The notes under the pieces: generated by a model
The model's database searches: none
The model's input: the letters and a program-made list of their open reading frames with translations, nothing else
Told to the model about the DNA's origin: nothing
Origin: Anthracocystis setariae
Taxonomy: Eukaryota > Basidiomycota > Ustilaginomycetes > Ustilaginales > Ustilaginaceae
NCBI GenBank assembly: GCA_928724745.1
Contig: CAKMXJ010000019.1
Span: 310,001 to 374,000, forward strand
Length of the DNA stretch: 64,000 nucleotides
Direction of reading: 5' to 3'
Shown: positions 4,701-64,000 of the stretch, one piece after another
Layout: every line of letters starts with the position of its first letter
Numbering within the stretch: position 1 is the first letter of the stretch
Translations under genes and position numbers: made by a program

Positions 4701-4966
4701 CATTTGCACAGTCGATCGAGGGCGTGCGCGTGTCCAAGCTGGTGGTGCTTGGCCTTGAGCGCGAGCCGAAAGCTGTTCACATCCGAGGCAAACGAATCAA
4801 TGGCCAAGATGAAAACTCATCGACCGAATGGAGCTGGAGGAGTGGAGTCAGCTCGTCGGGCAAGGGTTCGACGCTTGGACTTGGTTCCAAGACTGCCTCG
4901 GAACTGGTGATCAAGGATCCCGCCGTTGCAATTGTTTCGGATTGGACCATCGAGTTCGAGATGTGA
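1781..4966 (+). CDS. ROT2: Glucosidase II catalytic alpha subunit (GH31)
   Basis: This 1061-residue ER enzyme removes the two inner alpha-1,3-linked glucoses from N-glycans during glycoprotein quality control, normally with a beta subunit. The ATG at 1781 was chosen because it begins a clear signal peptide (MLVKARWTCTLVCACLLVVG, then a VDHVDA cleavage region) and the mature part starts with the family's KCKDSSFCRR segment. The GH31 N-terminal beta-sandwich is followed by the catalytic barrel. The nucleophile Asp585 lies in WNDMNEP (583-589), Asp670 in WTGDN is the likely acid/base, and GYHQCRWNY is the conserved substrate-pocket loop. No KDEL-type retention signal is present, as expected for an alpha subunit. 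Single exon. The reading frame is open upstream to about 1169 but that part overlaps DPH5 and has no homologous content. Confidence 0.95.
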   Translation: MLVKARWTCTLVCACLLVVGALLVDHVDAVREHDFKKCKDSSFCRRIRRQSDYVEQWQTDNNQPFTSPYFIPRHTPNFVHSNASITLPLSSALHPEVQFELSLTFFKDGTARVRADQVGKRYADWKRYDQASTYAIEHFPQLASAPSDTRIETHDNGFEVHFGPTLSRSVKLSYSPLKVEILRDGEVQVILNDRGLMHMEHYRKKPEPFPTIKQEDQEVHQLVFQRNKRSILNSESAAEYSESLVSQWAGFEQEDDGEWEETWAQRRDSKPKGPEALALDMTFPGYTHLFGLPEHASPLSLRSTRAPAGRSSAEDEKDRFTDPYRLMNTDVFEYDHDSPMSLYGSVPILHAQSKGRAVSVLWLNAAETWIDLHKSKSSAAKSATTTSYSHFFSESGILDLFIFTSADAPTNMALFTKLVGRTVLPQYFAIGYHQCRWNYLTDTDVKDVSQRFDDEDIPMDVMWLDIEYSKDHMYGVWDEKAFKDPEAMVKALDDKGRKLVIIIDPHLKRTRDYWLYAEAQDKKLLVKDSDRKGEYEGWCWSGSASWLDMFEPASWQWWADQFSLAGSKLTGKIRANARNVFVWNDMNEPAIFNGPEVTSPKDVIHAGGWEHRDIHNINGVLFHNATARGLRDRELSVPASLGGGKPRRPFVLSRAWWIGTQKYGAIWTGDNLGTWEHLAVSVPMILANNIGGMSFCGADIGGFFGNPPPDMLVRWYQAGIFEPFFRAHAHIDTKRREPYLLDEPLRSAVRDLIKLRYKMLPMWYTAFKENAVTGMPVLRPQYLMFPDDSEGFDIDTQYYIGDSGLLVRPAVDKDVDSVNVYLADDRPYYNYFTHEVYQGERRGRTVAVPAPLTSQLPLLHRGGSILPLRERARRAAELGRKDPFTLIIALDKQERTGKSGSNNVLAEGSLYLDDGQTYDFEQGQFVWRRFEWTRDGASGKHFLRSKDEAAIKKADGQLILGDSKQLQPYSISNAFAQSIEGVRVSKLVVLGLEREPKAVHIRGKRINGQDENSSTEWSWRSGVSSSGKGSTLGLGSKTASELVIKDPAVAIVSDWTIEFEM

Positions 4967-5476
4967 GCAGTCATGTCTCATCTGTATGCATGGATTCCAC
5001 AGCAAATGTACAGGTAGTACCCTAAATTCGCCATTCGAGTACGGCCATCAAGGAATGCATCTTGTTACCTACTCGCTCATCTCTGTACATCAGTCCCAAC
5101 GGTCTCTATCGGGAGCATCTCCTTCTCCTTGATGTACTGTACTGTACTGTACTGTACTGGTGAGGTTTTGTCGAAGCTGTCGAGAGTGAATCTGTGCGAC
5201 TGACTGGTATAATAAGTGCTTTTTGTGAATTTGGTATTAATAAAAACGCTGTAAGAAACAGTTGTGTCTGATTTTGTGTCCAAGTTGGAAGGACGCGGCG
5301 CGTGGGTTTCGCGTTTATTGGGGTGTGGAGGGCAGCCGAGTCCAATGACATCTGAGTTGGAAAAAACAAGACTGACTGCTTTCAGTCGCCATCGTTGATT
5401 CGGTCGTTCCACTCCATCATCTCTACTGCGACGATCTGACGGCTTTGATGGCCACGCCGCCTCAGGGTGTCATCGA
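4967..5476. other. Intergenic: 3' region of ROT2 and leader of the next gene
   Basis: This 510-bp stretch holds the (GTACT)5 repeat at 5134-5159 and no supportable gene. A short ATG frame at 5448 runs into a stop after 36 codons and could be a small upstream frame of the following gene. Confidence 0.4.
5134..5159. repeat. (GTACT)5 pentanucleotide microsatellite
   Basis: Five tandem GTACT units plus one base. The same pentamer recurs in many intergenic spots of this window. Confidence 0.95.
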
Positions 5477-7492
5477 ATGCAGGCTTGTGAGCCTGGTGGA
5501 TCTCGGCCGGCGCAGCATGCCTTGGCACCGATCTCGATCCAACATGCATGCCATCTAGAGCAGCCAGATGGCGCATCCTGGTTCGGCGCCCACGACAAGG
5601 AGACGAACCCTTTGCGCACACCCGGCGTAGAGATTGACACACGTCGACCGCTCCCCGATCGCTATGCGGAGACGCTCTGGCTTGGAGAATTCCACACGAG
5701 CCTGCGCCATTTTCTCGATTGCATTGAGCGATTGAAGCTCTCTTACGACCTCGACGAGATCGTATTGGGCCTTTGCTACTTGATCAAATCCAACACCGCC
5801 ATCTCTCGACGACACAAAGCTGCAGCTCGCAGATTGCTTCGCTCCACGGGGCAAGTCGGAAATGACCTTGCCGACGAAGCTTGCAATCTGTCCGGATACG
5901 AGAAGAGCCTCGTGCTGCAGGCCATCGAGAGGGCTGGCTACAGTTCGCGTTTCGCCCAGGCGGATAGTTCGGATCCAGATGTGTTGAGTGAGAGATGGGC
6001 ATCGTCCATGGAGAGCCGAGAGTAAGTTGGCGCATACCTTTTGCGAAGACGACCGTTGAGTGACGCTGACCAGCCCAAATTATGTTTTGCGCTTCACAGG
6101 ATTCAACTACAAATTTTAGTCACAATGTGTCTGCTGCAGATCATCTCACAAGAGCCAAGAGCGCTGGAGCTGGCACGTTCACGTCTAAGCATGGATTCCT
6201 CTGCCCTGTCGAACATTGAAAATGGAGCAGGCGTTGCATCAGCAGACTCGGCGGCGGACAATGAACGAGATCGGCCGCGGAAACGATCACGAAAGCTCGA
6301 GAAAGCCAAGCGATGGCGAGGCACACGACCGAATGCGGATGCAGGCGATGCATTCGCATGGAACCAAAGACGCAAGCGTCTTACAACCGATTCTTCTCAC
6401 GACGAAGGCGACCACGGTGAAGGCGAGGTGCTGGAAACCGAAGGCGGTGACGTTCTGGCGGTGGAGCATCTGAGCAAGAGGCTCGAGGCGCTGGTCGACA
6501 TCTTGTGCCTCCGACAAGTTGCGGCGGGTGTGAGTTCAGGGATCGCTGATCTCCTGTCGGATACCATCGCCGAAACAAGTGATGAACATAGCGGTGCGGG
6601 TCGAAATAATGTCAGAGGTGAATTGTTCGGATCATCGGTACGGAAGCTAGTCGAGGACGATGACATGGACGATGCGCAATGGCTCTGCTCACATGTGGTG
6701 GAGCCGCACTTTGAGTCGAGCTTGCCTCGACAATGCTCTCTGTTCAGAAGCAAATGCTTTGTGTCGCTGCAATCCCGGACGCCAGCACGGCCAAACAAAA
6801 GTGTGCGTATGGTTTCGTTGGGATCGCCACCAATGCGTGCTCCAAAGAGAAGTGCAAGCGGAGCCTCTGCAGGATCCTCTGCGCCGCTTGTTGGTGCTGG
6901 TCTGTCGGACGTTCTAGAAAAAGAGCAGGCTGGAAGGAGAGTCAAGCGAAACACTATGGCCGAACGAACGAGCATCCTCGGCCGTGGACGGGAAGTGGAT
7001 ATGGGACGAAGACTGTCTCGCAGCATCAGCGCCAATCTCGGAAACAGTCGAGAATCACAAGTGCCGATTGGAGTTTTTTCGCGGAGCAACAACACCATGG
7101 CCATATCGCAGCCCAAATTCGAGACCGACGGCAAGCAGGAGATCAAGGCGATCGGCAGTGCATTCAGGCGATCGGCTTCTCAACGAGTGGATATGACAAC
7201 AAGCCTGCGATCAAACGAATTCTCAGCAACGCCATCGTTTGCCGCATCGCCGCCGAACACATCGAAGCGGTTGCTGGTCATGTCGACGCCGCAGAAAGAC
7301 TCGGCGAGCAAGACACGTGATGTCAAACACTTCTCTGGGCTAGACAAGCCCAAATTGGTTTACCCAAGCTTGGTGATGGAATCGCCTACTCAGACGGATT
7401 CACGCATGCTCGGTCGACGAGGCAGAGCGAGAAGTTTTGGTCTGGATCGATCGCCATCACCAGTTGCCATTTACTCTGATGTAGAAGAATGA
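5477..7492 (+). CDS. Sld3-like DNA replication initiation protein (candidate), two exons
   Basis: Exons are 5477-6021 and 6100-7492, giving 645 residues. The 78-nt intron (6022-6099) begins GTAAGT, has a CTGAC branch site at 6066-6070 and ends CACAG; only this acceptor keeps the frame. Splicing creates the segment REIQLQIL (about residues 181-188). This is followed by a basic stretch, LEALVDILC (about 310-318) and VVEPHFESSLPRQC (about 381-394). That order resembles the conserved core of fungal Sld3, which with Sld7 and Cdc45 loads the replicative helicase and is activated by CDK phosphorylation. The C-terminal third is basic and Ser-rich, with several SP/TP sites (GSPPMR, STPQK, ESPTQ, RSPSP), as expected for a CDK target. 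The assignment rests on remembered motif order, not an alignment. The start is provisional: the first in-frame ATG was used and N-terminal residues 1-40 look poorly conserved. A 5' exon is possible. Confidence 0.6.
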
Positions 7493-38062: not shown

Positions 38063-41000
38063 ATGGACGACTTTGACGACTTTGTCACTCCCGCCTCTAG
38101 AGCGCACCAAGCTCAGAATGCCTCGTCAACTCGCATTGCTGCTCCACAAGACCCGTTCGCCGACTTTGATCAGTCGCATACATCATTTGGTTCGACTCAC
38201 CACTCGCAACCATCACACGTCCTAGTCGATGCCGACGATCCCGATCTTACGGGCGATGACTTTGACGACTTTCACCAAACCGCTGCCGCTTCTAGCAAAC
38301 CCACCCACCCTCTCTCGGTAGACCCGTTTACCGCTTCAACCGTATCGTTCGATCACCATGATACCGCCATGGGTTTGGATGCTCCTGCACACGGGTTCGG
38401 CTCTCATAGGCAAGCAAGCATGGAATCCGGCCTACCACTAGCTGCCGGTGCCCAGACGCCTGCAGGTCACGACTACACCGGCTCCTATCACACCGAGGGT
38501 CCGTTTTCAGATTCGTATGCTGCTCGACATAGCTTCAAGAGTATCGAGGCCGACGACGAAGATTCACCCATGGAGGATGGCAGGTACCTTGCCTATGGTT
38601 CGGGGCCTTCGGCTGCAGCAACGCGCGGCGCTGCAGGTGCTTCCAGGCGTTCCGGCATGGGCGCAGGGCTCACGTCGGGTACCAGTCGCAAACCGCCTAG
38701 AGATGGCATCCTGGATGGTGTCAAGAGGAGCATGAGGACGGTCAAGGCCGATATCGACACTGTGCTCCGTCGACGCAGGCAGCAAGAGAAACGCCAAGGC
38801 GAGCGTGTCATCCAACTCAACGATCCTGTCACCAACGACAAGTCCGATTTCCTCGACAATTACGTTTCCACATCCAAGTACAACATCCTCTCCTTTGTGC
38901 CCAAGTTCCTGGTCGAGCAGTTTAGCAAGTACGCCAACGTCTTTTTCTTGTTCACCGCTTGCATTCAGCAGATCCCCGGTGTGTCCCCGACGAACCGTTG
39001 GACCACCATTGTCCCGCTCGCGTTGGTGCTGTTGGCGTCGGCGTTCAAGGAGATCAAAGAGGATATCAAGAGGCACCAGTCCGATTCCGAACTGAATGCC
39101 AGGATCTCGCATGCGCTCGATCCAGGCTCCGGCTCCTTTGAGCCGAGGAGGTGGAGGCATATCCGCGTCGGAGACATTGTCAGAGTGGAGAACAACGAAT
39201 TCTTCCCTGCCGACTTGGTGTTGATCTCGAGCTCCGAGCCCGAAGGTCTTTGCTACATCGAGACCGCCAATCTCGACGGAGAGACCAACCTCAAGATCAA
39301 GCAGGCTTCGCCCGATACCGCCAAGCTCACGTCTTCCAGTGCCGCCTCGACGCTCCGGGGCAATCTTACCTCGGAACAGCCCAACAACAGTCTCTACACG
39401 TTTGACGCTACGCTCAATATCCAGCTTAGCTCTACGCCAGGCTTCAGTGGCGCGCCCATGAGGAAGGCGCCTCTGAGTCCGGAACAGTTGCTCTTGCGAG
39501 GTGCGCAGTTGAGAAACACGCCCTGGGTGTATGGTATTGTCGTGTTCACTGGTCACGAGACTAAGCTGATGCGCAACGCTACTGCTGCGCCAATCAAACG
39601 TACGGCGGTGGAGAAGCAGGTCAACGTGCAGATCTTGCTGCTCTTTATCCTGCTTCTGGCACTGTCGGTGGCGTCGTCGATCGGTGCGATTGTGCGCAAC
39701 ACCGCTTACGCCTCCGAGATGCAGTATCTGCTGCTCAACGACAACTCCAACTCCAAGGCAAGGCAGTTTATCGAAGACATCCTCACGTTTGTCATCGCCT
39801 ACAACAACCTCATCCCCATCTCGCTCATCGTCACCGTCGAAGTGGTCAAGTATCAACAGGCCATGCTCATCAATTCGGATCTGGACATGTACTATGCGCC
39901 CACCGACACGCCCGCGCTCTGTCGAACCAGCAGCTTGGTCGAAGAGCTCGGCCAGATCGATTACATCTTTTCCGACAAGACGGGTACGCTGACGCGCAAC
40001 GAGATGGAGTTTAAGCAGGCGTCGATCGGCGGCATCAGCTGGACGGATGTGATCGATGAGTCCAAGCAGGGCACGGGGGAGATCGGTCCCGATGGCAGGG
40101 AGATCGGTGGGCAGAGGACTTGGCATGAACTTAAAGCCATCATGGATCGACGCACGCCCGACGATGGAAGCAGCGCCATGATCGACGAGTTCCTGACGCT
40201 GCTGGCTGTCTGCCATACGGTTATCCCCGAACGAAAGGGCGACAAGGTGATTTTCCAAGCGTCTTCGCCCGATGAAGCTGCGCTCGTGGCAGGCGCCGAG
40301 TCGCTCGGTTACCAATTTACAACGCGCAAGCCGCGCTCGGTGTTTGTCAACATCCGCGGCCAGGAGAAGGAATGGGAGATCCTCAACGTTTGCGAATTCA
40401 ACTCGACCAGGAAGAGGATGAGCACGGTTGTGCGCGGCCCCGACGGAAAGATCAAGCTGTACTGCAAGGGCGCCGACACGGTGATCTTGGCACGGTTGAG
40501 CGAGAACCAACCGTTCACCGAACAGACTATGATCCACCTCGAGGACTACGCTACCGAAGGGCTTAGGACGCTGTGCATCGCCATGCGCGAAGTGAGCGAG
40601 CAGGAGTACAAGCAGTGGAGCAAGATCTACGACCAGGCCGCCGCTACCATCCAGAACCGAAGCGAGGCGCTCGACAAGGCGGCCGAGATGATCGAGCAGA
40701 ACATGTTTTTGCTCGGTGCCACCGCGATCGAAGACAAGTTGCAGGATGGCGTGCCGGACACGATCCATACGCTGCAGAGCGCCGGGATCAAGATCTGGGT
40801 GCTGACGGGCGACAGGCAGGAGACGGCGATCAACATTGGTCTCTCGTGCCGGCTGATCTCGGAGAGCATGAATTTGGTCATTGTCAACGAGGAGAATCTG
40901 CATGATACCGCCGAGGTGCTCAACAAACGTCTGCAGGCGGTCAAGAATCAGCGCAACACGGCGGGCATGGAACAGGAGGAGATGGCGCTCGTGATCGACG

Positions 41001-42193
41001 GCAAGAGTCTGACGTTTGCGCTGGATAAGGAGCTGAGCAAGGTTTTCCTCGAGTTGGCGGTGCTGTGCAAGGCGGTGATTTGCTGCCGAGTGTCGCCGTT
41101 GCAGAAGGCGTTGGTGGTGAAACTGGTCAAGAAGAACATGTCGTCGCTGCTGCTGGCGATCGGAGATGGTGCCAACGACGTGTCGATGATTCAAGCGGCT
41201 CATGTTGGTGTAGGTATCAGCGGTGTAGAGGGTCTGCAAGCGGCGAGGTCGGCGGATGTGGCGATTTCGCAGTTCCGCTACCTGCGCAAACTGCTGCTGG
41301 TGCACGGCAGCTGGTCGTACGCGCGACTGAGCAAGATGATCCTTTACAGTTTCTACAAGAACATCACGCTGTATATGACGCTGTTCTGGTATTCGTTCCA
41401 GAACTCGTTCTCGGGTCAGGTGGCGTTCGAGTCGTGGACGCTGTCGTTCTACAATGTGCTGTTCACGGTGCTGCCGCCTTTGGTGATTGGGATTTTCGAC
41501 CAGTTCCTGTCGGCGCGCATGCTGGACCGATATCCGCAGCTGTACGGCCAAGTGTACTTTGACAAGAGGAGGTTCTGGGGCTGGACGGCCAATGCGTTCT
41601 TCCACTCGCTGATCACGTATCTGTTTGTCACGATCGTCTTTTGGGGATCGCCGCAGCTGTCGGACGGGTATGCGAGTTACGCATGGATCTGGGGCACGAC
41701 GCTGTTCATGGTGGTGCTCGTCACGGTGCTCGGCAAAGCTGCGCTGATCTCGGACGTGTGGACCAAGTACACGTTTGCTGCGATCCCGGGATCGCTGCTG
41801 TTTACGATTGTGTTTGTGGCGATCTATGCGATCGTTGCGCCGAGGCTAGGGTTTTCCAAGGAGTACTCGCACATCCTTGGACCGCTGTATGGATTCAGTG
41901 GGTTCTGGTTCTCGATGCTGGTGGTGCCGGTGGTATGTCTGATGAGGGACTTTTGCTGGAAGTATTGGAAGCGAACGTACCGGCCCGAGAGTTACCATGT
42001 GGTGCAGGAGGTGCAAAAGTACAATCTGCAGGATTACAGGCCGAGGATGGACCAGTTCCAGAAGGCGATTCGAAAGGTCAGGGCGGTGCAGAGGATGAGG
42101 AGGACGAGGGGATTTGCGTTTAGTCAGACAGAGGGCAGTGCAGATCTGATCAGGAAGTACGACACCACCATCGCAAAGGCTTCCGGTCAGTAA
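38063..42193 (+). CDS. DRS2: P4-type ATPase, aminophospholipid flippase of the Drs2 group
   Basis: This 1376-residue membrane ATPase moves phosphatidylserine and phosphatidylethanolamine to the cytosolic leaflet of trans-Golgi and endosomal membranes, normally with a Cdc50 partner. Visible are DGETN (405-409, the P4 form of the actuator motif), NLIPISLIVTVE (the P4 helix 4), the phosphorylated Asp638 in DKTGTLTRNEMEF, GDRQETAINIG, and the hinge GDGANDVSMIQAAHVGVGISG. The C-terminus has about six further membrane segments and a basic tail containing RKVRAVQRMRRTRGFAFSQ, which resembles the Drs2 regulatory tail. The N-terminal tail carries three DDFDDF/DPFADF-like motifs (2-7, 30-36 and about 68-73). 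The ATG at 38063 was chosen because upstream codons are CAT-repeat sequence. Single exon. Confidence 0.93.
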   Translation: MDDFDDFVTPASRAHQAQNASSTRIAAPQDPFADFDQSHTSFGSTHHSQPSHVLVDADDPDLTGDDFDDFHQTAAASSKPTHPLSVDPFTASTVSFDHHDTAMGLDAPAHGFGSHRQASMESGLPLAAGAQTPAGHDYTGSYHTEGPFSDSYAARHSFKSIEADDEDSPMEDGRYLAYGSGPSAAATRGAAGASRRSGMGAGLTSGTSRKPPRDGILDGVKRSMRTVKADIDTVLRRRRQQEKRQGERVIQLNDPVTNDKSDFLDNYVSTSKYNILSFVPKFLVEQFSKYANVFFLFTACIQQIPGVSPTNRWTTIVPLALVLLASAFKEIKEDIKRHQSDSELNARISHALDPGSGSFEPRRWRHIRVGDIVRVENNEFFPADLVLISSSEPEGLCYIETANLDGETNLKIKQASPDTAKLTSSSAASTLRGNLTSEQPNNSLYTFDATLNIQLSSTPGFSGAPMRKAPLSPEQLLLRGAQLRNTPWVYGIVVFTGHETKLMRNATAAPIKRTAVEKQVNVQILLLFILLLALSVASSIGAIVRNTAYASEMQYLLLNDNSNSKARQFIEDILTFVIAYNNLIPISLIVTVEVVKYQQAMLINSDLDMYYAPTDTPALCRTSSLVEELGQIDYIFSDKTGTLTRNEMEFKQASIGGISWTDVIDESKQGTGEIGPDGREIGGQRTWHELKAIMDRRTPDDGSSAMIDEFLTLLAVCHTVIPERKGDKVIFQASSPDEAALVAGAESLGYQFTTRKPRSVFVNIRGQEKEWEILNVCEFNSTRKRMSTVVRGPDGKIKLYCKGADTVILARLSENQPFTEQTMIHLEDYATEGLRTLCIAMREVSEQEYKQWSKIYDQAAATIQNRSEALDKAAEMIEQNMFLLGATAIEDKLQDGVPDTIHTLQSAGIKIWVLTGDRQETAINIGLSCRLISESMNLVIVNEENLHDTAEVLNKRLQAVKNQRNTAGMEQEEMALVIDGKSLTFALDKELSKVFLELAVLCKAVICCRVSPLQKALVVKLVKKNMSSLLLAIGDGANDVSMIQAAHVGVGISGVEGLQAARSADVAISQFRYLRKLLLVHGSWSYARLSKMILYSFYKNITLYMTLFWYSFQNSFSGQVAFESWTLSFYNVLFTVLPPLVIGIFDQFLSARMLDRYPQLYGQVYFDKRRFWGWTANAFFHSLITYLFVTIVFWGSPQLSDGYASYAWIWGTTLFMVVLVTVLGKAALISDVWTKYTFAAIPGSLLFTIVFVAIYAIVAPRLGFSKEYSHILGPLYGFSGFWFSMLVVPVVCLMRDFCWKYWKRTYRPESYHVVQEVQKYNLQDYRPRMDQFQKAIRKVRAVQRMRRTRGFAFSQTEGSADLIRKYDTTIAKASGQ

Positions 42194-53735: not shown

Positions 53736-56020
53736 GGTGCATACGTCCCACCTCGGGTAATCTTGAGGGCTTTACTTCATGTGTGGGCGTGCCGCGGTCG
53801 GGACGAAGAGGCGGCAACGGCGATGGGTTGTGGAGATGTGGGACCACAGTCAAGAGACGTTAGAAGTGGCTGGACCAGTTCGAGAGACAGGCTGGTGATG
53901 ATGTCGATTTTCAAGAGCGTCTGGGCGTGGGCGTGTCAACTGAAGTGCGCCGATGAAGAGAGCAAAGCGAATGACAAGATCGAAGCAGCGTTCGGCGTTG
54001 TTCGTTGCTGTGAAATTAATAGAATAGGATGAGGGGTGCGTGACCGCAACGATGAGCCCAGGGACTATGGTGGCGAGGTCGACGTCGATGTGAGAAAACG
54101 AGATATCCAAGAGGAAAGCAGCGTCAAGTGATAGCCCGAGCGTTTCGGTGTGTGGTTGTACAGTACAGTACAGTACTGTAGCACCGCCTCGAGCGGATCG
54201 CAAGCCTACTGAACCGTAAGATGGATGTCGAACGGTGTGTGCGTGATGACAAGTGTTGCGGAACGACCGATGGCGAGCAAAGTTGGCGAGGGCGTACAGC
54301 GAAGTGCAGTGCAGTGCAGTGCACACTACAGTAAACTGTACTGTACTGTACAATATATAAGTATTCGGTGGTGTTCCGGACTGAGTCAACAGACAAGTGG
54401 AGCCGACAGCACTGCATTCAGAGTCAGCCGTAAATCACAGAATGTGAATCATCGCGCAACAAAGGGCATCCATCTCTATCGCGGCGGCCGACGAGCAAGC
54501 GGCGGAGGAGGCAGAGGAGGCGGCGGCGGCGCGTGCATCAGGGTTGGCCAATTTCAGAAGCAGAAGCGTCGGTCGGTCGGGGTTTGGCGTGAGTCGGGGT
54601 GGGCGCCAAATTTCAACAACAAAAATCGCATTTAGAATAATAATATACAGTCCAGTGCAGTGCAGTACTGTAGCCCCAAACGTGGCAAGTGTGCTTTGCT
54701 GTTGCTGCTGTTGCTGTTGCTGCTTGATGCCATGCATGCACCATGCATGTCCTGTACTGTACTGTAATTTCGACCGAGCCGAGGTGGTTGACAGCCTTTC
54801 GTTGCCATCGAGTTCAGTGCAAGGTGCATTTGAGCCTGCACATCTCACGCTGCTGGCCTCCTTCTTTTTTTTTGCGCTGTCTTCTGGTCTGTTTTCGTTG
54901 GGTACAGTACTGCTTTGCTGTGATTGACTAGACTCTGCTTTGGCGCATCTGTGATTCTGTTCAGTACGAGTACAGTGTGCAAGTCTGTTGAGCTCAAGTC
55001 CTGATGGACGCTTGCGTTTCAATCTGCAGTCGCATGTTGCCAAGCTCTGATATGTTTTGCAAGCTAAAAACTCGACCCTCTGCCTGTTAGCCGCCGCTGC
55101 TTGCGCCAACCCGGACCAGACAAGCCAGCATATGGCGAGAAAGGATCAAAGAACAGTCGATCAGCATCGAATACAGTATCAGAGGAAAAGCAAGCAAGCA
55201 ACCAACCAACCCGAACCAGCGGGCAACAGTCAGCAGGCAGAGGCAGGCTGCAAAAGGGAAAGCCCCGGTCGAGCGATAAGGCGGCTTTGCTCTGGCCATT
55301 TTTTTGATTAATTGATATTAAATTTGGCTGATTTTGGCTTGGATTTCTCCATCGGATGCACAGCGAGCCACATTGCCTGCGCCATCATCCTCTTATTTGT
55401 ACTTTGGAAGTGGTGCGTGTGCTGTGTGATTTTTTTTCGGTAGCTTCTCTTGTTAGATTCGACTCGTCGCATCGCATCGCATCGGCTCGTCAAGACGCAG
55501 ATGCAGACAGCCAAGCAAAGCAAAGCAAAGCAAAGCAAAGCAAAGCAAAGCAAAGCAAAGCAAAGCAAAGCAAAGCAAAGCAAAGCAAACAACTGAGTAT
55601 TACTCCATTTTCCGCATCAGATAGATATCCAGCCGATTCGTTCGTAATTGGGCTCTGTTCGTAACACCTCGCTATACGTCATCAGACACTGTAACGTAGA
55701 ACACATCGTAATCAAGAAAACTACATAGTAATGCATAAGATCATGACATCGTTATCATTAGTAGTGATCGTAACGATCAATTGTGGAGGTTGAGATCAAG
55801 TGAGCTGAGCGATCTGAGCTGTCTTGGTCCATCTCGTCGCCGTCGCCGTCCTCCGCTACGGGTACCTGTACAGTACACACATGTTCATGGTGCTCACGTC
55901 TTACTATTGCAATGCTATCGAGTCTAAGCTACTGTACTACATCATTGATAAAGGCGTCGATCTGATCGTCGATGTCTGGAGACGAGCGATTGACATCAGG
56001 AACCGCCTCCTCCTCCTCCT
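53736..56020. other. Intergenic region between the arrestin-like gene and the LTR element
   Basis: 2285 bp with no supportable gene. It is rich in GTACTGTACTG-type motifs (54158-54180, 54336-54351, about 54753-54766, 54902-54911, 55867-55876), GTGCA repeats (54303-54322) and a 77-bp pentanucleotide array. It ends in a CTC repeat (about 56005-56020) that was the insertion site of the retrotransposon. Confidence 0.45.
55513..55589. repeat. (CAAAG)15 pentanucleotide array
   Basis: About 15 nearly perfect units over 77 bp, 430 bp left of the retrotransposon. Confidence 0.97.
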
Positions 56021-56379
56021 TGTTATGATTGGGATATCGGGAGAGTTAGTGTTTGGTTTCAGTATTAACATTGACGGGGGTAGTTCCCCCCGATGAAGTC
56101 CCGGATCGAGGATCGGGACAGACTGCGGCATCTTCCGGGGGATATCCGGGTGGCCACATAATCTCACGAAATGATCCCGCCACACTCACGACAGGACGTC
56201 GATTGTATTTTAGCTTACTCACTATAGTAGGTGGAAATATCAGACCTTCTCCCGATCTCCCGCTCACCCGCTCCGCTATCTAGGCAACGATCCCGGGAAC
56301 AACACCCGGTACCACGCCCCTGGCCTCGATACAGACGCACCGCCACGTTCCGAGGTTCCCAGACCCCAGGAGCATAACA
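56021..56379 (+). repeat. 5' long terminal repeat
   Basis: The left boundary is set by the repeat shared with 63864-64000. The right boundary is inferred from the terminal inverted repeat TGTTATG...CATAACA, which closes at 56373-56379. The likely transcript start is near 56198, giving U3 of about 177 bp; CATAAT at 56156-56161 is a weak TATA candidate. Confidence 0.85.
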
Positions 56380-56426: not shown

Positions 56427-59400
56427 ATGCAAACCCGTAGCCAGCATCGTCCCGGCTCCCCGGACTCTGTTACGGGTTCGGGCAGCCCTACCCCCGCTTC
56501 GGGAGTCGACCCCGTCCAGGGACTAGTTGCCGCCGTGCAGAACCTAACCGCCCTGGTCGGAGGACTCGCCGACCAGATCCGGCTGCTCAACAGCGGCCGA
56601 GCCCCCGACCCCGCCGTCCCGACCCCGGCAGAACCGGGCCTCCCGCCCATGGAGCACCCGGGAGACCCTTCTCCGGAACGCGAGACCTTGGAGGAAAGGT
56701 ACGCCCGCGCTACTCGCCTGATGGGCGAGCGCGGGGCCAATCCCCAGCCGGTGCCCCCGGGAGCTCCCGTCGTGGCTCCCAACTGGGACCTTACGGAGGA
56801 CTATTCCTCCCGGGTCAAGACCCCGGAAGTTAGCGTTGCCGCCCCCTCCTGGGACGGTAAGCGCGACGAGCTGGAGGCTTTCATCGAACAATGCGCCCTC
56901 CATTTCGATCTTAACCCGGCGCGCTTCCCCTCCGACCCCCGCCGTGTCTTATGGGCCCTAGCCCATATCTCGGGTGTACCCCGGGAGCGGCTCCGCAACC
57001 TGCGCCAGGCCCGCCCGGAAATCAACCTGTTCCACAAATGGGACACGTTCTGCGCCGATCTTCGCCGCACCTACGGGGATCCTAACCCGGGACACACCGC
57101 CCGGGTCAAGCTCCAGCGGCTGCGTCAATCGGGAAGCGTTAGCGCTCACGCTGCCGAGTTCTTGGCCCTAGCCACTAAGGCTAACGCTACCGACAATCAG
57201 CAATTGCTGACGACCTTCCAGCTTAGCCTCCGGGAGAGCCTCCGGCAGAAGCTCCTCCACGTGGAGACCTACGACCTGCACGAGTACATTGACACCGCTA
57301 TCCGAACAGAGCAGCGAATGTACGAAATCGGCTTGGTGACCCCGGGTCACTCGGACACCCCGGGTCGCCCGGAACGCCGCCCCGAACTTCGGGGCGGTCG
57401 CCCACCCAATCCGACGGTACCCCGTCGGGAGACCCCCAACAAGCGGGGTGATCCGCCCCGCCCCGGGCTGGCCAGCCGGGAGCTTCCCGACGAGGTCCGC
57501 AAGTACCGTCGGGAAAACAACCTCTGCTACGGGTGCGGGGGCCCTCACGCAGTCCGGGACTGCCCAAAGGCCGCCCAGACTCGGCCCCTCCGGGCCAACG
57601 TGGCTATCCTAGACCCCGCCAACGGCGAGCTTTTGGTCCAACCCCTGGTCCCGGACGTCCCGGAGACCCGGTGGTCCGGGGAGGACGAAGCCACACCTAT
57701 CAACGGCGAGGATGACCTACCCGATGACCGCTCCGTCCTTTCCTATGACCCGGAGTGGGACCCCGAGTCCACCGACCACCCTCAGTCCCTCCCGGTGAGG
57801 GCCAACATCGCCCAACTTCGCCAGGACCCGGGACTCGTGGATCTCAGGAGCCATGTAGCGGCCCTCATCCCTCCCGCCGAGCCGGTGATCAGCGGGGACA
57901 CCATCCGAGTACACCGACACCCCAGCATCCCGGTGTATGAGTGCTGGGTCACGCTGGCCGGGTGCCGTGCCCGGGCCCTCATTGACGGGGGCGCCACCGC
58001 GTCTTTTGTGGACAGGGCCATGCTGGATCGGGAGGTGGGCGTCCCGGAGGCCCTCCGGGCCCCGGTGCGCACGGCAACCTTCGATTCCCATTCAGAGGAC
58101 ATCACCCACACCCTCCGGGCAACGGTCAGCCTCGCGGGAGTCCCGGTTACCCCGAATCATCCATTCTATGTCGCACCCCGCATCTCCGATTATGATATCA
58201 TCCTAGGAATGGATTGGATTGAGAAGACCGAACCGGTACTCAATTATCAAACCCAAACCATGCACTTCCCGCTCCCGGGAGGAGGGGGTTACGCCACCAC
58301 CTCTGTTCAGCCTACCGGCCCTCCGCTGCTTACCAATAGCCAGGAACCCGCCCCGGGGGAGGATTGTTTCGCTATCCACCCCAGCTCTTTGGGGCCACCC
58401 CGGGCCCCAGGCCTCCCGGAAGAGTACCGGGACTTCTCGGACGTGTTCAATGAGGTTAACGCCGACGTGCTCCCGCCTCGCCGGCCTCACGACCACCAGA
58501 TTAACCTCCTCCCCGGAGCCCAGATCCCACATGGCGCACTATACTCCCTCTCCGGGAGAGAAATGGAGGAACTTAAGACCTATCTTGATAAGATGCTTGA
58601 GATAGGGTTCATCCGGCCGTCCAAGAGCCCGGCAGCCGCCCCTATCATCTTCGTCCCGAAGAAAGATGGCAAACTCCGCCTTTGCGTCGACTACCGGGCC
58701 CTCAACAGCATCACCGTCAAGGACAAGTATCCGATTCCCCTGATCTCCGAGCACCTGGACTGCCTCTCCCGGGCTAAGATTTACACAAAATTGGATCTTA
58801 AGGGGGCCTACAATCTTGTCCGCATCGCGGAGGGCGACGAATGGAAAACAGCCTTCCGGACCAGGTACGGGAGCTACGAATACTTAGTTATGCCCTTTGG
58901 ACTATGTAACGCCCCGTCCACTTTCCAGCGTCTCATGAACCACGTTCTCCACGACCTCTTGGATGTCACCGTAATAGTGTATTTGGATGATATCCTCATA
59001 TTCTCGGTTGACCCCGCAGAACACACCTCTCACGTCCGGGAGGTGTTGAGACGCCTCCGAGACCACAAGCTGTACTGTGCCCCGGAAAAATGTGACTTCG
59101 GGACCTCGTCTGTCGAGTTCCTCGGGTACCGGGTCAGTCCCGGGGGGATCAGCATGGACCCCGGTAAGGTGGACGCGGTGACGTCCTGGCCAGAACCAGT
59201 CACCATCCGGGACATCCAGGTCTTCTTAGGGTTTGCCAACTTCTATCGCCGCTTCATCCGGCACTACTCCCGGGTGGCGTCCCCGCTCACCGATCGGCTC
59301 AAGAACAAGGCCTCCGGTAAGATCAACCTGGAGCCCCAGGAGCGGGAGGCTTTCATCCGACTCAAAGAAGCCTTCACTACCGCCCCAATCCTACAACACT

Positions 59401-61238
59401 TCGACCCCTCCCGGCTCACAGTGATCGAAACAGACGCTAGCGATTACGTCGTGGCTGCCGTACTCTCACAGTGGTACGCCGCCCCGGGGACCGACCCCGA
59501 GGCTGTACCCCGGCCCTCGACCCACCGGCTCCATCCGGTAGCCTATTGGTCGCGAAAGATGCAACCCGCAGAGCGTAATTACGAAATCCACGATAAAGAA
59601 CTCCTAGCGATTGTAGACGCGTTGCAAGAATGGAGACATTACCTCCACGGGCTCCAGGAGCCGTTTGAGGTGCTCACCGACCACCAGGCCCTCCAATATT
59701 TCCAAACGAAACGGCAACTTAACAGGCGGCAGGCCCGGTGGAGCATGGCTCTCGGGGAGTTCACGTTTACCATTACGTACCGACCCGGGACCCAGGCAAC
59801 CCGCCCAGACGCTCTGTCCCGGCGCTCCGATGGTCATCCCAACACCACCACCACCAATCATCAGCATGACCCCTCTAACGTCGCGGTCCTCCTACCCCCT
59901 TACCTGTTCCAAGATCTCGGGCTGGCGGAACAACGAACACCGGCTGCGCACCGGATATCGGACGTAGTCCCGGGCCCCGACCCTCTCCCGACCAGTCCCG
60001 CGTCCCCCGCCGAAGTGAAACGAATCCTAGAGCGCTACCACGACCACCCGACGGCGGGACACCCGGGAGTGGCCGCTACCCTGGAACTGGTCCGCCGCCA
60101 CCACTCCTGGCCCAATTTCAAGCACGATGTCACGGAGTACGTTCGGACCTGTGGAGCCTGTAAGCGCGCTAAAGCGCCCCGGCATAAGCCTTACGGACTG
60201 CTGCTCCCGCTCGACGCCCCGACCCGGCCGTTCGGGACCATCACCATGGACCATATTGAGGGTCTCCCGGTTTCCCGGGTCGGTGGCCTCACGTTCGACT
60301 CCATCCTCGTCGTCGTCGATCGTCTCACCAAGTACTCCCTTTTCCTCCCGGCCCGGAAGTCCGATACGGCCAAAGATCTCGCCCACATGCTGTTCTCCCG
60401 CGTCTTTGCCTATTTTGGACTCCCGGACACCATCGTGTCAGACCGGGGGCGCACGTTTGTAGCGTCCCTGTGGAAGGATATCCTAACAGCCCTCGGGACC
60501 ACTCCGGCCCTCTCCACAGCCTATCACCCGCAAACAGATGGCCAAACCGAGCGTGTTAATCAAAATCTAGAGGTTTTCCTCCGATTCTATGTCAACTACC
60601 AGCAGGACGACTGGGCGTCCTGGCTACCGTACGCCCAACTTACGCTAAACAATAGAGTGTCAGCTACAACCGGGCTACCGGCCACCCTACCCCTGTTTGG
60701 ATTCACCCCGAAAACCCTCCCCGGGTCACCAGCCCTTTCCCCGGGCGGTATACCGCCCTCCGATTCGGCTTTCCGGGGACTCCTCCAACACTGCCGGGCC
60801 AACATTAACCACGCTGCCACCCTGATGTCCAAATACGCAAACCGCTCCAGGATGGACCGGTCTTTTTCCGGGGGTGACATGGTGCTACTCCGCACCCGAC
60901 ATCTCCGTCAAGATCGACCGTCCCGGAAGTTAGGGAACCCGTTAGCGGGGCCGTTCCGGGTTCTCAAGGCGGTGGGCCCCCCGGGCCTACAAGTTGGACC
61001 TCCCGCCCGCCTGGAAAATCCACCCGGTGTTTCACGTCAGCCTCCTGGAACCGCACTCCCCGGACACCCGACCCTCCGAGCACGCCCCGACGTCCCGGCG
61101 CCTGGAGGACGACCGACAGGACTTCGAAGTGGAAGATATTTTGGCTTCCCGAGAGACACGTCGGGGGCGGCAGTACCGGGTGAAGTGGGCAGGCTACACC
61201 CAACCTACGTGGGAGCCAGCGGCTCACTTAGAGAATAG
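56427..61238 (+). CDS. Gag-Pol polyprotein of the LTR retrotransposon (C-terminal chromodomain out of frame)
   Basis: This 1603-residue frame from ATG 56427 encodes all retrotransposition functions in one frame. Gag capsid-like region, about 125-300. CCHC zinc knuckle Cys367-Cys379, with the spacing CX2CX3HX4C (one residue shorter than usual). Protease active site Asp520 in LIDGGAT, where the usual DSG/DTG is DGG. Reverse transcriptase with YLDD at 852-855. RNase H (IETDASDYV ... NYEIHDKELLAI ... TDHQAL). Integrase with an HHCC zinc domain and DD35E triad Asp1275, Asp1339 and Glu1375, then the GPF module (about residue 1510). After a run of six C (60977-60982) the frame turns into non-homologous Pro/Gly/Arg-rich sequence and stops at 61236-61238, while the chromodomain continues in the +1 frame. 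Codon use is far more GC-rich than in the host genes. Confidence 0.93.
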   Translation: MQTRSQHRPGSPDSVTGSGSPTPASGVDPVQGLVAAVQNLTALVGGLADQIRLLNSGRAPDPAVPTPAEPGLPPMEHPGDPSPERETLEERYARATRLMGERGANPQPVPPGAPVVAPNWDLTEDYSSRVKTPEVSVAAPSWDGKRDELEAFIEQCALHFDLNPARFPSDPRRVLWALAHISGVPRERLRNLRQARPEINLFHKWDTFCADLRRTYGDPNPGHTARVKLQRLRQSGSVSAHAAEFLALATKANATDNQQLLTTFQLSLRESLRQKLLHVETYDLHEYIDTAIRTEQRMYEIGLVTPGHSDTPGRPERRPELRGGRPPNPTVPRRETPNKRGDPPRPGLASRELPDEVRKYRRENNLCYGCGGPHAVRDCPKAAQTRPLRANVAILDPANGELLVQPLVPDVPETRWSGEDEATPINGEDDLPDDRSVLSYDPEWDPESTDHPQSLPVRANIAQLRQDPGLVDLRSHVAALIPPAEPVISGDTIRVHRHPSIPVYECWVTLAGCRARALIDGGATASFVDRAMLDREVGVPEALRAPVRTATFDSHSEDITHTLRATVSLAGVPVTPNHPFYVAPRISDYDIILGMDWIEKTEPVLNYQTQTMHFPLPGGGGYATTSVQPTGPPLLTNSQEPAPGEDCFAIHPSSLGPPRAPGLPEEYRDFSDVFNEVNADVLPPRRPHDHQINLLPGAQIPHGALYSLSGREMEELKTYLDKMLEIGFIRPSKSPAAAPIIFVPKKDGKLRLCVDYRALNSITVKDKYPIPLISEHLDCLSRAKIYTKLDLKGAYNLVRIAEGDEWKTAFRTRYGSYEYLVMPFGLCNAPSTFQRLMNHVLHDLLDVTVIVYLDDILIFSVDPAEHTSHVREVLRRLRDHKLYCAPEKCDFGTSSVEFLGYRVSPGGISMDPGKVDAVTSWPEPVTIRDIQVFLGFANFYRRFIRHYSRVASPLTDRLKNKASGKINLEPQEREAFIRLKEAFTTAPILQHFDPSRLTVIETDASDYVVAAVLSQWYAAPGTDPEAVPRPSTHRLHPVAYWSRKMQPAERNYEIHDKELLAIVDALQEWRHYLHGLQEPFEVLTDHQALQYFQTKRQLNRRQARWSMALGEFTFTITYRPGTQATRPDALSRRSDGHPNTTTTNHQHDPSNVAVLLPPYLFQDLGLAEQRTPAAHRISDVVPGPDPLPTSPASPAEVKRILERYHDHPTAGHPGVAATLELVRRHHSWPNFKHDVTEYVRTCGACKRAKAPRHKPYGLLLPLDAPTRPFGTITMDHIEGLPVSRVGGLTFDSILVVVDRLTKYSLFLPARKSDTAKDLAHMLFSRVFAYFGLPDTIVSDRGRTFVASLWKDILTALGTTPALSTAYHPQTDGQTERVNQNLEVFLRFYVNYQQDDWASWLPYAQLTLNNRVSATTGLPATLPLFGFTPKTLPGSPALSPGGIPPSDSAFRGLLQHCRANINHAATLMSKYANRSRMDRSFSGGDMVLLRTRHLRQDRPSRKLGNPLAGPFRVLKAVGPPGLQVGPPARLENPPGVSRQPPGTALPGHPTLRARPDVPAPGGRPTGLRSGRYFGFPRDTSGAAVPGEVGRLHPTYVGASGSLRE

Positions 61239-61305
61239 CCAGGAGTTGCTCCAGGAATTCCATCAGCGGCAGTCCGGGAGCCAAGCTAGCTCCCGGGACT
61301 GCTGA
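60983..61305 (+). pseudogene. Chromodomain and integrase tail in the +1 frame, separated from Gag-Pol by a frameshift
   Basis: The +1 frame from just after the C6 run encodes the integrase C-terminal end (WKIHPVFHVSLLEPH) and a chromodomain (FEVEDILASRETRRGRQYRVKWAGY, about 61123-61197, with the aromatic residues of YRVKWAGY and the following WEPAAHL). It ends with a stop at 61303-61305. Such chromodomains direct integration to marked chromatin in chromoviruses. In this copy it would not be made as part of Gag-Pol unless the ribosome shifts frame, or unless the C-run length is a sequencing error. Confidence 0.85.
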
Positions 61306-61599: not shown

Positions 61600-61605
61600 T
61601 TTATT
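61600..61605 (-). terminator. Poly(A) signal of the antisense gene
   Basis: AATAAA on the minus strand, 52 nt after the antisense stop codon (61657-61659). Confidence 0.6.
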
Positions 61606-61656
61606 CCCGGGATCCTAATGATCCCGGACACACGACATGACACAGTTCCCGGGGGC

Positions 61657-63573
61657 CTATCGATGCCCCCGACGTGGAGGGGTGCGGGGACGGGACTCGT
61701 ATACGTCCGAGTCCACCATCACCACATCCTCGTCGGAGTCCTCCCCGGACTCCCGGCTTCGGTCCTCCGCCCCCGAGGACTCCTCGTCGCGGGACTCACC
61801 CCGGGAGTCTTCCCGGGAGCTCTCCCGACGGCGGGCACGGATCGGGGCCCGCATGTCCCGCACCACCGCCTGAGCTCGGCGGCGCTGGGCACGCCTCTCC
61901 GGTTCGGGAGAGGGAGGGCGAAGTCCGCCCACCGGGAGACGCTTCCCGCCCGTTTGGAAGCTCCCCGGGAGGCGCTTACCCCCCGTCTGAGGAGGGCGCT
62001 TTCCTCCCGTTTGGGAACGGGAGCCACTCGCACGGGAAGTTCGCTCCCGCGTAGGCGTCCCGGGGCGCTGCCTCTTAGCACGCGCCACCTCCGGGGTCGC
62101 CGGGGCATATCCCGGGGAGGGGGGTCCCCGGATCCGGGACGGCCCAGCTTCGGCGTTGCGCCTCGGGGGCGCCGCCGCGCGAGTGGGGGCGGGAGCGGGA
62201 GCAGGGACGGGGGCGGGAGCAGCGGGAGGCACTACCGGGGGCGGGGGAGGAGGCGGGACGCCAAGCTCCTGAGTGATGCCTCCGAAGGCATGACTCACCC
62301 CCTCCACGTAGCGGAGGATATTCTCGTCCCGGTACGACCAGGAGAGACGTCGCTCCGCCCCCACGGCAGCGGTCCGGCGAAGGACCTGTACCAGCGCGGC
62401 GATCACTCCCGCCGCGTGGGATGCCGCCTCCCGGGCCCCGGCCATATGTTGGTCCCCCGGAGCATCGAAGGGACAAACTTGGCGCAGGGCCAAGGGAGCA
62501 TCGGGGATGAGGGTGGTTTGCTTCCACCCCCTTTGACCCCGAGGGGGCCGGGAACCCGGGGCACTGCCGCCAGCACTGGAAGACGCCCCAGCGGGAGACT
62601 CGGGAGCCCGGGGACGACTCCCCGCCTTGGCCTGCCGACGGGCCTCGTACCGAGCACGCGCAGGGGCGTACTCGGCCGCCAGGTACTCCGGGAGGTCCGC
62701 CGCGGAGAACGACGTGAAGGGCATCCCGGGGTTAGGACGTTGACCCCGGGCCCGGAGGACAAGATAGGCTTCCATAAGGAAGCCGCCCTCCTGGCGTCCC
62801 GTGATGTCCGGGACGCGCCCCTGCCAGTCGCAGGGATACCCCGCGGCGTGGCAACGCTCACACGCGGCATGCTGACCGTCCCGGGGGTCCTCCGGACCCC
62901 CGACGTCCCGGTGCGCATAGCCCAGGGAGCACTGCGGGTGGGGTTTCTTTTTGCTGTTGGCGCAAGACCAACAATGCCCGTACCCCTCGGAAGCGGGAGG
63001 GGTACCCCGTGCTCGAACCTCCCGGACAAGCGCCGCCAGCCTACCAGGGTCCCCGATCGGTACACCTGCCCCGGGAGCCGGGGTGGCCGCGACCAAAGAC
63101 CCGGGGGTGGTCCCGCTGGAGGGAACCACCACGCCGCTGGCTTCGCTGCCCGGGAGCCCGGGAGCCTGCTGCCCATCATCCCGGCACGAGGCCGAAGCCT
63201 GTACCGGGGACTCGTCCACACCACTGGCACCCGGGACCAATTCGGGGCCAGCTTCCCCGCGCGGGAGCACGGGGGACTCATCCACGTACAGGGAGACTAC
63301 GTCTCCCTCTTGGGCCACATAGTGGCCCGACTCATCCACACCCTCCGGGGCACTCACGCCCCGGGACTCGTCCACAACCTCCGGGGCATTAGCACCCCGG
63401 GACTCGTCCACAGCCAGTTGTTCGGGGGCGGGGGCAGAACCTCCCGCTACCCCACCGTCGGGGCCACCTCGCCGGGTGGAGGATCGTGTTGCTGTATTAA
63501 ACGGGAAGGCAAAGATGTCAGTCACCGGCCTCACTCTCGTAGTCCGGGTCCCGGAACTATACTTACTACGCAT
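61657..63573 (-). CDS. Antisense accessory gene of the retrotransposon: Zn2Cys6-like cysteine-cluster protein, two exons
   Basis: On the strand opposite to gag-pol, exons 63573-63567 and 63491-61657 give 613 residues. The 75-nt intron keeps the frame open, so the unspliced form (638 residues) is also readable. A TATATAAG box lies 83 bp upstream of the ATG and AATAAA 52 bp after the stop. The protein has an acidic N-terminal region with five VDES repeats (encoded at about 63205-63412). A cysteine cluster follows (codons 62973-62830) with spacing CX2CX10CX21CX2CX6C; its second half, CERCHAAGYPCDW, is very like the second half of a fungal Zn2Cys6 cluster, and the first loop is longer. Next come a probable helical domain (about 62270-62720), Pro/Ala-rich sequence, three QTGGKR repeats (about 61945-62020), and an RS/RE/DS-rich tail. 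A DNA-binding or regulatory role is inferred; no exact family was recognised. Confidence 0.75.
   Translation of the reverse strand: MRSKYSSGTRTTRVRPVTDIFAFPFNTATRSSTRRGGPDGGVAGGSAPAPEQLAVDESRGANAPEVVDESRGVSAPEGVDESGHYVAQEGDVVSLYVDESPVLPRGEAGPELVPGASGVDESPVQASASCRDDGQQAPGLPGSEASGVVVPSSGTTPGSLVAATPAPGAGVPIGDPGRLAALVREVRARGTPPASEGYGHCWSCANSKKKPHPQCSLGYAHRDVGGPEDPRDGQHAACERCHAAGYPCDWQGRVPDITGRQEGGFLMEAYLVLRARGQRPNPGMPFTSFSAADLPEYLAAEYAPARARYEARRQAKAGSRPRAPESPAGASSSAGGSAPGSRPPRGQRGWKQTTLIPDAPLALRQVCPFDAPGDQHMAGAREAASHAAGVIAALVQVLRRTAAVGAERRLSWSYRDENILRYVEGVSHAFGGITQELGVPPPPPPPVVPPAAPAPVPAPAPAPTRAAAPPRRNAEAGPSRIRGPPSPGYAPATPEVARAKRQRPGTPTRERTSRASGSRSQTGGKRPPQTGGKRLPGSFQTGGKRLPVGGLRPPSPEPERRAQRRRAQAVVRDMRAPIRARRRESSREDSRGESRDEESSGAEDRSRESGEDSDEDVVMVDSDVYESRPRTPPRRGHR
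63492..63566 (-). other. Intron of the antisense gene
   Basis: 75 nt read on the minus strand: GTAAGT donor after the seventh coding base, CTGAC branch site, TCTTTGCCTTCCC pyrimidine tract and TTTAATACAG acceptor. Length and signals match the host introns of this window (75-120 nt). The signals exist only in the antisense direction. Confidence 0.75.
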
Positions 63574-63655
63574 GTTGCCAAAAGAATATGTTCCGAGTTG
63601 CAGAACGAGGGGTTGTGGGAGGAAAGAAGGAACCAGGAACGGGAGCGAGACGAGT

Positions 63656-63663
63656 CTTATATA
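63656..63663 (-). promoter_or_regulatory. TATA box of the antisense gene
   Basis: TATATAAG on the minus strand, 83 bp upstream of the antisense ATG. It lies between the gene and the 3' LTR, so the antisense promoter is internal to the element and not in the LTR. Confidence 0.65.
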
Positions 63664-63842
63664 CAAAAGAAAAGTTAGCGCTCAGCCCGCTGCGCACGCT
63701 CCGCCGCGCACGCCCCGCCAGGCACACAAAGCGTCCGTTCCTGACTCCTTTGTTCTCAGCGCGGACCGCGCGTGGTGGGTCCGGGAACCTCCCGGGTGGA
63801 GCTTACGACCCGGGAGAACCAAATAGGCCACGAGGACGTCGG

Positions 63843-63863: not shown

Positions 63864-64000
63864 TGTTATGATTGGGATATCGGGAGAGTTAGTGTTTGGT
63901 TTCAGTATTAACATTGACGGGGGTAGTTCCCCCCGATGAAGTCCCGGATCGAGGATCGGGACAGACTGCGGCATCTTCCGGGGGATATCCGGGTGGCCAC
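63864..64000 (+). repeat. 3' long terminal repeat, cut by the window end
   Basis: 137 bp, identical base for base to 56021-56157 of the 5' LTR. About 222 further bases are expected beyond the window. Confidence 0.95.

Follow-up and report, generated by a model that had tools for sequence, protein, structure and literature searches.

Antisense Genes of LTR Retrotransposons

Extra open reading frames (ORFs) running antisense between pol and the 3' LTR are described in maize Grande, rice RIRE2, Silene Retand, bean PvRetro13 and Botrytis Boty (PMC7264820). The antisense gene23 of maize Grande (an aORF-3R) is transcribed from its own upstream promoter and encodes a nuclear protein, the function of which is described as unknown (PMC7264820). 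In Retand, antisense ORFs for TRP28 (PF04195), which has predicted DNA binding, are present between pol and the 3' LTR in 97% of clusters (PMC11963269). In Boty-like elements of Botrytis cinerea, gag-pol with a chromodomain is accompanied by the antisense gene brtn (PMC8365987; PMC4227169; PMC7264820). HBZ of the retroelement HTLV-1 is an antisense gene for a nuclear protein (PMC11963269), and the HTLV antisense promoter sits in the 3' LTR (PMC7264820).

The window, i.e., the whole 64,000-nucleotide stretch of Anthracocystis setariae DNA analyzed here, contains a comparable gene. As judged from the DNA, this is very probably a genuine accessory gene of a fungal chromovirus lineage, read antisense, spliced and coding for a protein, because its splice signals are conserved, its minus-strand frame is under purifying selection, such genes occur in three element families and a TATA core is kept in the window element's own family. 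The proposal of a separate antisense protein-coding accessory gene, made in an initial annotation of this DNA, is thus upheld by conserved introns, by selection on the minus frame and by the recurrence of the gene in the three families. As antisense genes of LTR elements are already known as a kind from Grande, Retand and Boty, the window gene is a variant of that kind.

Like gene23 of Grande, the window gene is antisense and located between pol and the 3' LTR; Grande is a plant element with reported transcription, whereas transcription of the window gene is something we infer. Boty shares more than position with the window element, both being fungal gypsy elements whose gag-pol includes a chromodomain and which carry an antisense gene besides, although the host of Boty is Botrytis, and the likeness of brtn to the window gene is known by description, not by sequence. 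The brtn gene of Boty-like retrotransposons was reportedly described by Zhao et al. in 2011. Retand also has its antisense ORFs in the region from pol to the 3' LTR, but belongs to a non-chromovirus plant lineage and carries PF04195, a domain that has no match in the window protein or in 14 relatives of it. HBZ is likewise an antisense gene in a retroelement and its product is nuclear, but the HTLV promoter is inside the 3' LTR, whereas the window TATA box is internal to the element, about 200 bp inside the LTR boundary; in these features the window gene differs from HBZ-like genes. HBZ mRNA is spliced and HBZ is a bZIP protein; the window protein has no Pfam match to bZIP.

The word antisense is absent from the main text of a fungal LTR-element survey (PMC3248453) and from that of a study of smut LTR elements (PMC9603552). 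Also, among the matches listed from the open-licence literature, titles and abstract openings mention no such gene in basidiomycete elements. Antisense genes of unknown function in LTR elements have so far been described mostly from plants, and the present fungal case adds a system in a compact genome of 21.5 Mb (36 contigs). Repeat annotation restricted to the sense strand will miss such genes.

The Host Chromovirus

The window element is a Ty3/gypsy chromovirus at 56021 to 64222 with 359-bp LTRs, classified as such because matches to gag, protease, reverse transcriptase (RT), RNase H and integrase follow in this order between the LTRs and are accompanied by a C-terminal chromodomain match. 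The 5' LTR (56021..56379, plus strand; TGTTATG...CATAACA) has the same sequence as the 3' LTR (63864..64222, plus strand), of which the window contains 63864..64000, the rest, beyond the window end, being read from locus L001. The identity of the two LTRs indicates a recent insertion. CTCCTCCT borders the element at both outer ends.

The gag-pol frame extends over 56427..61238 on the plus strand, with Pfam matches to its domains in the order just given, and the 3' end of pol with the chromodomain (PF00385, E 9.5e-14) is at 61000..61305 on the same strand. In this copy, a frameshift near 60980 displaces the chromodomain to a frame other than that of gag-pol. In copy L002, the antisense region of which is 99% identical, a single frame contains both the integrase and the chromodomain match. 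The frame change near 60980 falls in a C/G run just 5' of the chromodomain and is a mutation or an assembly error. Shortly upstream of the element, the five-base unit GCAAA forms a tandem array at 55509-55590. Rfam and tRNA scans of the window are empty.

Structure of the Antisense Gene

The antisense gene lies on the strand opposite to gag-pol, between pol and the 3' LTR, which is the location of an aORF-3R. The TATA box TATATAAG (63656-63663), the ATG (63573), the stop codon (61657) and an AATAAA (61600-61605) are all present on the minus strand at the positions given in the initial annotation, which also noted a frame of more than 600 codons. That frame is indeed open for 638 codons from the ATG at 63573 to the stop at 61657, but a predicted 75-nt intron had been overlooked. 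The coding part of exon 1 (63567..63573, minus strand) comprises the ATG and 4 nt and ends in phase 1; the predicted intron (63492..63566, minus strand) has a GTAAGT donor, a CTGAC branch point at 63521-63517 and a TACAG acceptor; and exon 2 (61657..63491, minus strand) includes the stop codon at 61657-61659. As the 638-aa frame contains the 75-nt intron, the spliced product of 613 aa is the likelier one.

The predicted 613-aa protein begins with an acidic N-terminus that bears repeats, continues with a core of six cysteines and ends in a long C-terminal part that is basic and rich in proline. The core is encoded at 62830..62973 (minus strand), where CX2CX10C...CX2CX6C is followed by DWxGRxP, and is related to the family-2 protein and to the database protein P0001 (see below). 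On the plus strand, a sense ORF of 686 aa (61618..63678) faces the antisense gene.

Conservation of Splice and Promoter Signals in Family 1

Searching the genome of the window with the 638-aa frame yields 75 matches: 30 long ones with 71-100% identity, fragments, and 15 at 32-39% identity, which mostly cover residues 171-345. The 30 long matches (L001-L030) constitute family 1. In 29 of these 30 loci the antisense frame adjoins an opposing chromodomain, and some LTR sequence is nearby in 29, although in one of these it amounts to only 26 bases. As in an aORF-3R, many copies of the family carry the frame and it is conserved as protein.

The intron can be followed in 28 of the 30 loci, the other two having no 5' part in the alignment. 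In all 28 copies the ATG, the GT donor, a CTRAC branch point (CTGAC or CTAAC) and the CAG acceptor are kept; the donor is GTAAGT in 22, GTGAGT in five and GTAGGT in one. The intron is 75 to 82 nt long, and its lengths do not step by three. The unspliced frame stops at 5-62 codons in 17 of the 28 copies. In 11 of these 17, splicing gives a frame of 602-614 aa where the unspliced reading is dead within 16-62 codons; in the remaining six, the spliced frame breaks farther downstream, at 84-492 aa. Both readings are long in ten copies, and one copy runs off the end of the alignment. An apparent internal TGA in L017 is no obstacle to a spliced product of 614 aa.

Regional identities, calculated as mean pairwise values for ten hand-chosen family-1 representatives, are high at the splice signals (donor 93%, branch point 96%, acceptor 100%) and in exon 2 (87%), as against 62% in the proximal 5' UTR, 75% in mid-intron and 58% in the pyrimidine tract. 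A TATAA core is located 85-88 nt 5' of the ATG in 28 of 28 copies, and the exact TATATAAG is found in 21. The TATA box, at 95% identity, stands out only mildly because the surrounding DNA is itself 89-91% identical. The idea that the gene has a promoter of its own is therefore sustained by the core in family 1, but does not extend to the stretches of families 2 and 3 that were checked. The AATAAA, put forward as a poly(A) signal, is present in the window copy but not conserved: AWTAAA occurs within 120 nt of the stop codon in 4 of 28 family-1 copies, no conserved poly(A) signal being found, and the hexamer was dropped as a functional signal.

A Homologous Gene in Family 2

The 15 distant matches (L031-L045) constitute family 2. 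These loci adjoin a chromovirus pol with RT 78-82% identical to that of the window, and the gene is antisense to and downstream of pol in 14 of the 15. In the remaining locus, L037, the family-2 antisense gene comes with about 3 kb of element sequence (3303-6286). Because L037 has no pol match in 9.5 kb and ceases to resemble L032 about 370 bases beyond the gene, this locus is, on sequence grounds, either truncated or a carrier of the gene that lacks pol.

In all 15 loci the gene has three exons and two predicted introns. With 13 coding nt in exon 1, the first intron (89-90 nt, phase 1) again follows closely behind the start codon; the second intron is 81-82 nt. Read without splicing, every locus gives 19-25 aa. 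Splicing gives 563-568 aa in ten loci, and in the other five the frame breaks at 62-387 aa. None of the 15 loci has a TATA box in the 200 nt 5' of its start codon.

Alignment of the family-1 and family-2 proteins by hhalign gives a probability of 98.4% (E 8e-15, 158 columns), and the two proteins are, by this comparison, homologous through the cysteine-rich core. Protein identity between the families is about 28%, and RT identity 78-82%. Invariant in 14 aligned family-1 and family-2 sequences are, among others, the six cysteines and DWxGRxP...EGxxLMEAYLxxRxxGxRPNP. For the last exon of family 2, dN/dS is 0.15, as determined from 8 of the 10 long last exons with 27 of 28 pairs kept, pairs with dS up to 0.02 being dropped. 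The initial annotation would lead one to expect the minus-strand frame to be conserved in related elements, and the family-2 protein, with its low dN/dS, bears this out.

Purifying Selection on the Minus Frame

In family 1, dN/dS was determined for 16 of the 28 aligned copies, excluding incomplete and frame-broken ones and some near-duplicate intact ones, over 596 gap-free codons and without pairs whose proportion of synonymous differences is up to 0.02. The median is 0.21 for the minus frame (112 of 120 pairs) and 1.40 for the open plus frame (110 pairs), so the comparison of Ka/Ks between the two overlapping frames, which the initial annotation had named as a check, reveals purifying selection on the minus frame. 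Variable sites in the 16 copies number 133, 109 and 322 at minus-frame codon positions 1, 2 and 3, respectively. For the integrase part of pol, dN/dS is 0.10 (14 copies, 87 of 91 pairs, those with dS up to 0.02 dropped). By dN/dS (0.21 and 0.10), the constraint on the antisense protein is about half that on pol. One other sense frame has a dN/dS of 0.35, yet carries 5-15 stops per copy; its value is explained by the coincidence of its third positions with those of the antisense frame.

The length of the frame is weak evidence in itself, because the 686-aa sense ORF lies opposite and long shadow ORFs face other genes of the window as well: the phospholipid-translocating ATPase gene (38063-42190, plus strand), for example, is faced by a shadow ORF of 879 aa (38567-41203, minus strand). 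Such shadow ORFs opposite ordinary genes call for caution with any antisense-ORF claim. The minus frame could itself be a shadow ORF, kept open merely by GC-rich codon composition opposite the sense frame or by chance, and the 686-aa sense ORF is open in 16 of the 16 compared copies, as this reading would have it. However, selection acts the other way (dN/dS 0.21 for the minus and 1.40 for the sense frame, with variable sites distributed 133, 109, 322), an open frame requires conserved antisense splice signals in 11 family-1 copies and 15 family-2 loci, and the protein has a homologue in another family. On these three grounds, splicing, dN/dS and cross-family homology, the shadow-ORF reading is rejected as extremely improbable. 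Also, with a dN/dS of 1.40 in its own frame, the 686-aa sense ORF is rejected as a real gene and judged to be the shadow.

Family 3 and the Common Position of the Genes

A third class of chromovirus, with RT 59-62% identical to the window RT, carries an antisense gene after pol and is termed family 3. In L047 (777-2413, minus strand), the frame starts with MAPKQK..., contains a predicted 68-nt intron (GTAAGT...CTGAC...CAG) and encodes 522 aa when spliced; L048 has a predicted intron of 70 nt at the matching place and encodes 516 aa when spliced; and L046 contains a piece of the second exon. A genome search gives 33 matches for exon 1 and 27 for exon 2. For the single pair L047 and L048, dN/dS is 0.20. 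No TATA box is found in the 200 nt (L047) and 101 nt (L048) 5' of the start codons. As none is present in the family-2 stretches checked either, the TATA box was dropped as a common trait of the three families.

The family-3 protein has six cysteines in two CX2CX6C triads and resembles the proteins of families 1 and 2 in this layout alone, with no significant sequence similarity to them (hhalign probability about 2%). Given that value, we do not claim that family 3 is homologous to families 1 and 2; the shared cysteine layout may reflect homology or convergence.

Of the 74 longer antisense copies counted across the three families, 62 are oriented opposite to an RT of their own class and placed 1.8-2.9 kb downstream of it (25 of 30, 16 of 19 and 21 of 25 in families 1, 2 and 3, respectively); the other 12 have no RT match so placed. 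The copies counted are the 30 family-1 loci, 19 family-2 places hand-picked from 77 search matches, many of which are family-1 loci or fragments, and the first 25 of the 33 family-3 matches.

This common position bears on the idea that the element picked up a host gene and carries it as cargo, of no use to itself. Introns are as expected of a piece of genomic DNA, and no homologue of known function was found. However, family 1 includes no free-standing copy, with a chromodomain in 29 and some LTR sequence in 29 of its 30 loci, and the place and orientation shared by three families, together with purifying selection, point to a benefit to the element; the cargo explanation is very unlikely. The contrary proposal, that the gene serves the element, can be widened: a whole clade of fungal chromoviruses might have possessed, since before the split of the three families, an antisense gene that is spliced and encodes a fast-evolving nuclear protein with six cysteines. 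This protein would regulate the element or counter host silencing, in parallel to retroviral antisense regulators such as HBZ, and family 3 would have diverged past recognition. We regard this broader scenario as possible if rather doubtful.

The Predicted Protein

The cysteines of the core are spaced CX2CX10C-X22-CX2CX6C, and the core is probably zinc-binding. Zn(II)2Cys6 proteins have a short, fixed cysteine spacing. The window protein does not match the Pfam Zn2Cys6 profile, which sets it outside the fungal Zn(II)2Cys6 proteins; it has no match of any kind in Pfam and none to PDB sequences, and among the 14 relatives the only Pfam match is SOG2, in two of them, with a best E of 0.31. The layout of the protein, with repeats in the acidic N-terminus, cysteines at the core and a C-terminal half that is basic and rich in proline, suggests that it binds nucleic acids in the nucleus.

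Only one relative, P0001, came to light in a collection of about 5.8 billion proteins, and only when the two-family alignment served as query. P0001 has 654 aa, is encoded on an ENA contig of 3,800 bases, and is 36% identical over 53% of the query and 51% identical over the core stretch. Queries with the full single sequence or with the core only found no relative in this protein collection, the fungal share of which is unstated, so that absence from it says little. No relative was found in viral contigs or in bacterial and archaeal genome contigs. The predicted structure of the core is poor (mean pLDDT 58.5, under 50 over the cysteine region), the better-scored parts being helices at residues 97-111 and 132-154 of the modeled stretch. 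A PDB fold search with this model returned two matches at E 9.2, neither a usable fold match.

Expression and Possible Roles

RNA polymerase II would initiate shortly downstream of TATATAAG, about 200 bp inside the 3' LTR boundary, and transcribe antisense to gag-pol, so that a second transcription unit would occupy the region between pol and the 3' LTR. The spliceosome would then excise the 75-nt intron just after the start codon, and the resultant mRNA would encode the 613-aa protein with its presumed zinc-binding core. The intron would survive retrotransposition, as its signals are read in the antisense RNA alone and not in the RNA genome that is reverse transcribed. This suggests that introns of antisense genes can persist through retrotransposition by lying on the strand other than that of the RNA genome.

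If the protein is made, it may act as a nuclear nucleic-acid or chromatin-binding regulator of the sense transcription of the element itself or of the pre-integration complex, a role that is plausible from the domain layout but that we hold with slightly less than even confidence. As the window insertion is recent, and dozens of intact antisense frames over three families are under clear protein selection, function is directly testable.

Alternatively, the protein could act on the host, e.g., as a suppressor of silencing or of heterochromatin directed at the element. The genome has one match to the Piwi domain above the Pfam cut-off (G000:C11:421877-422797), and host RNA silencing may therefore be present; the constraint on the protein is laxer than that on pol (0.21 versus 0.10), and its identity of about 28% between families 1 and 2, compared with 78-82% for RT, suggests fast change as in a conflict. 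As fast change may, however, just reflect low-complexity flanks, a host-directed action is unlikely.

The antisense RNA, rather than the protein, could also be the active product, pairing with the sense RNA to yield dsRNA and small RNAs by which the element is silenced or tuned, with the protein secondary. The whole antisense gene is contained in the presumed sense transcript, the Piwi-domain match fits here as well, and dsRNA roles are proposed for antisense ORFs of plants (PMC7264820). This explanation is nevertheless less probable still than action on the host: amino-acid selection in the minus frame would be left unexplained by a role of the RNA only.
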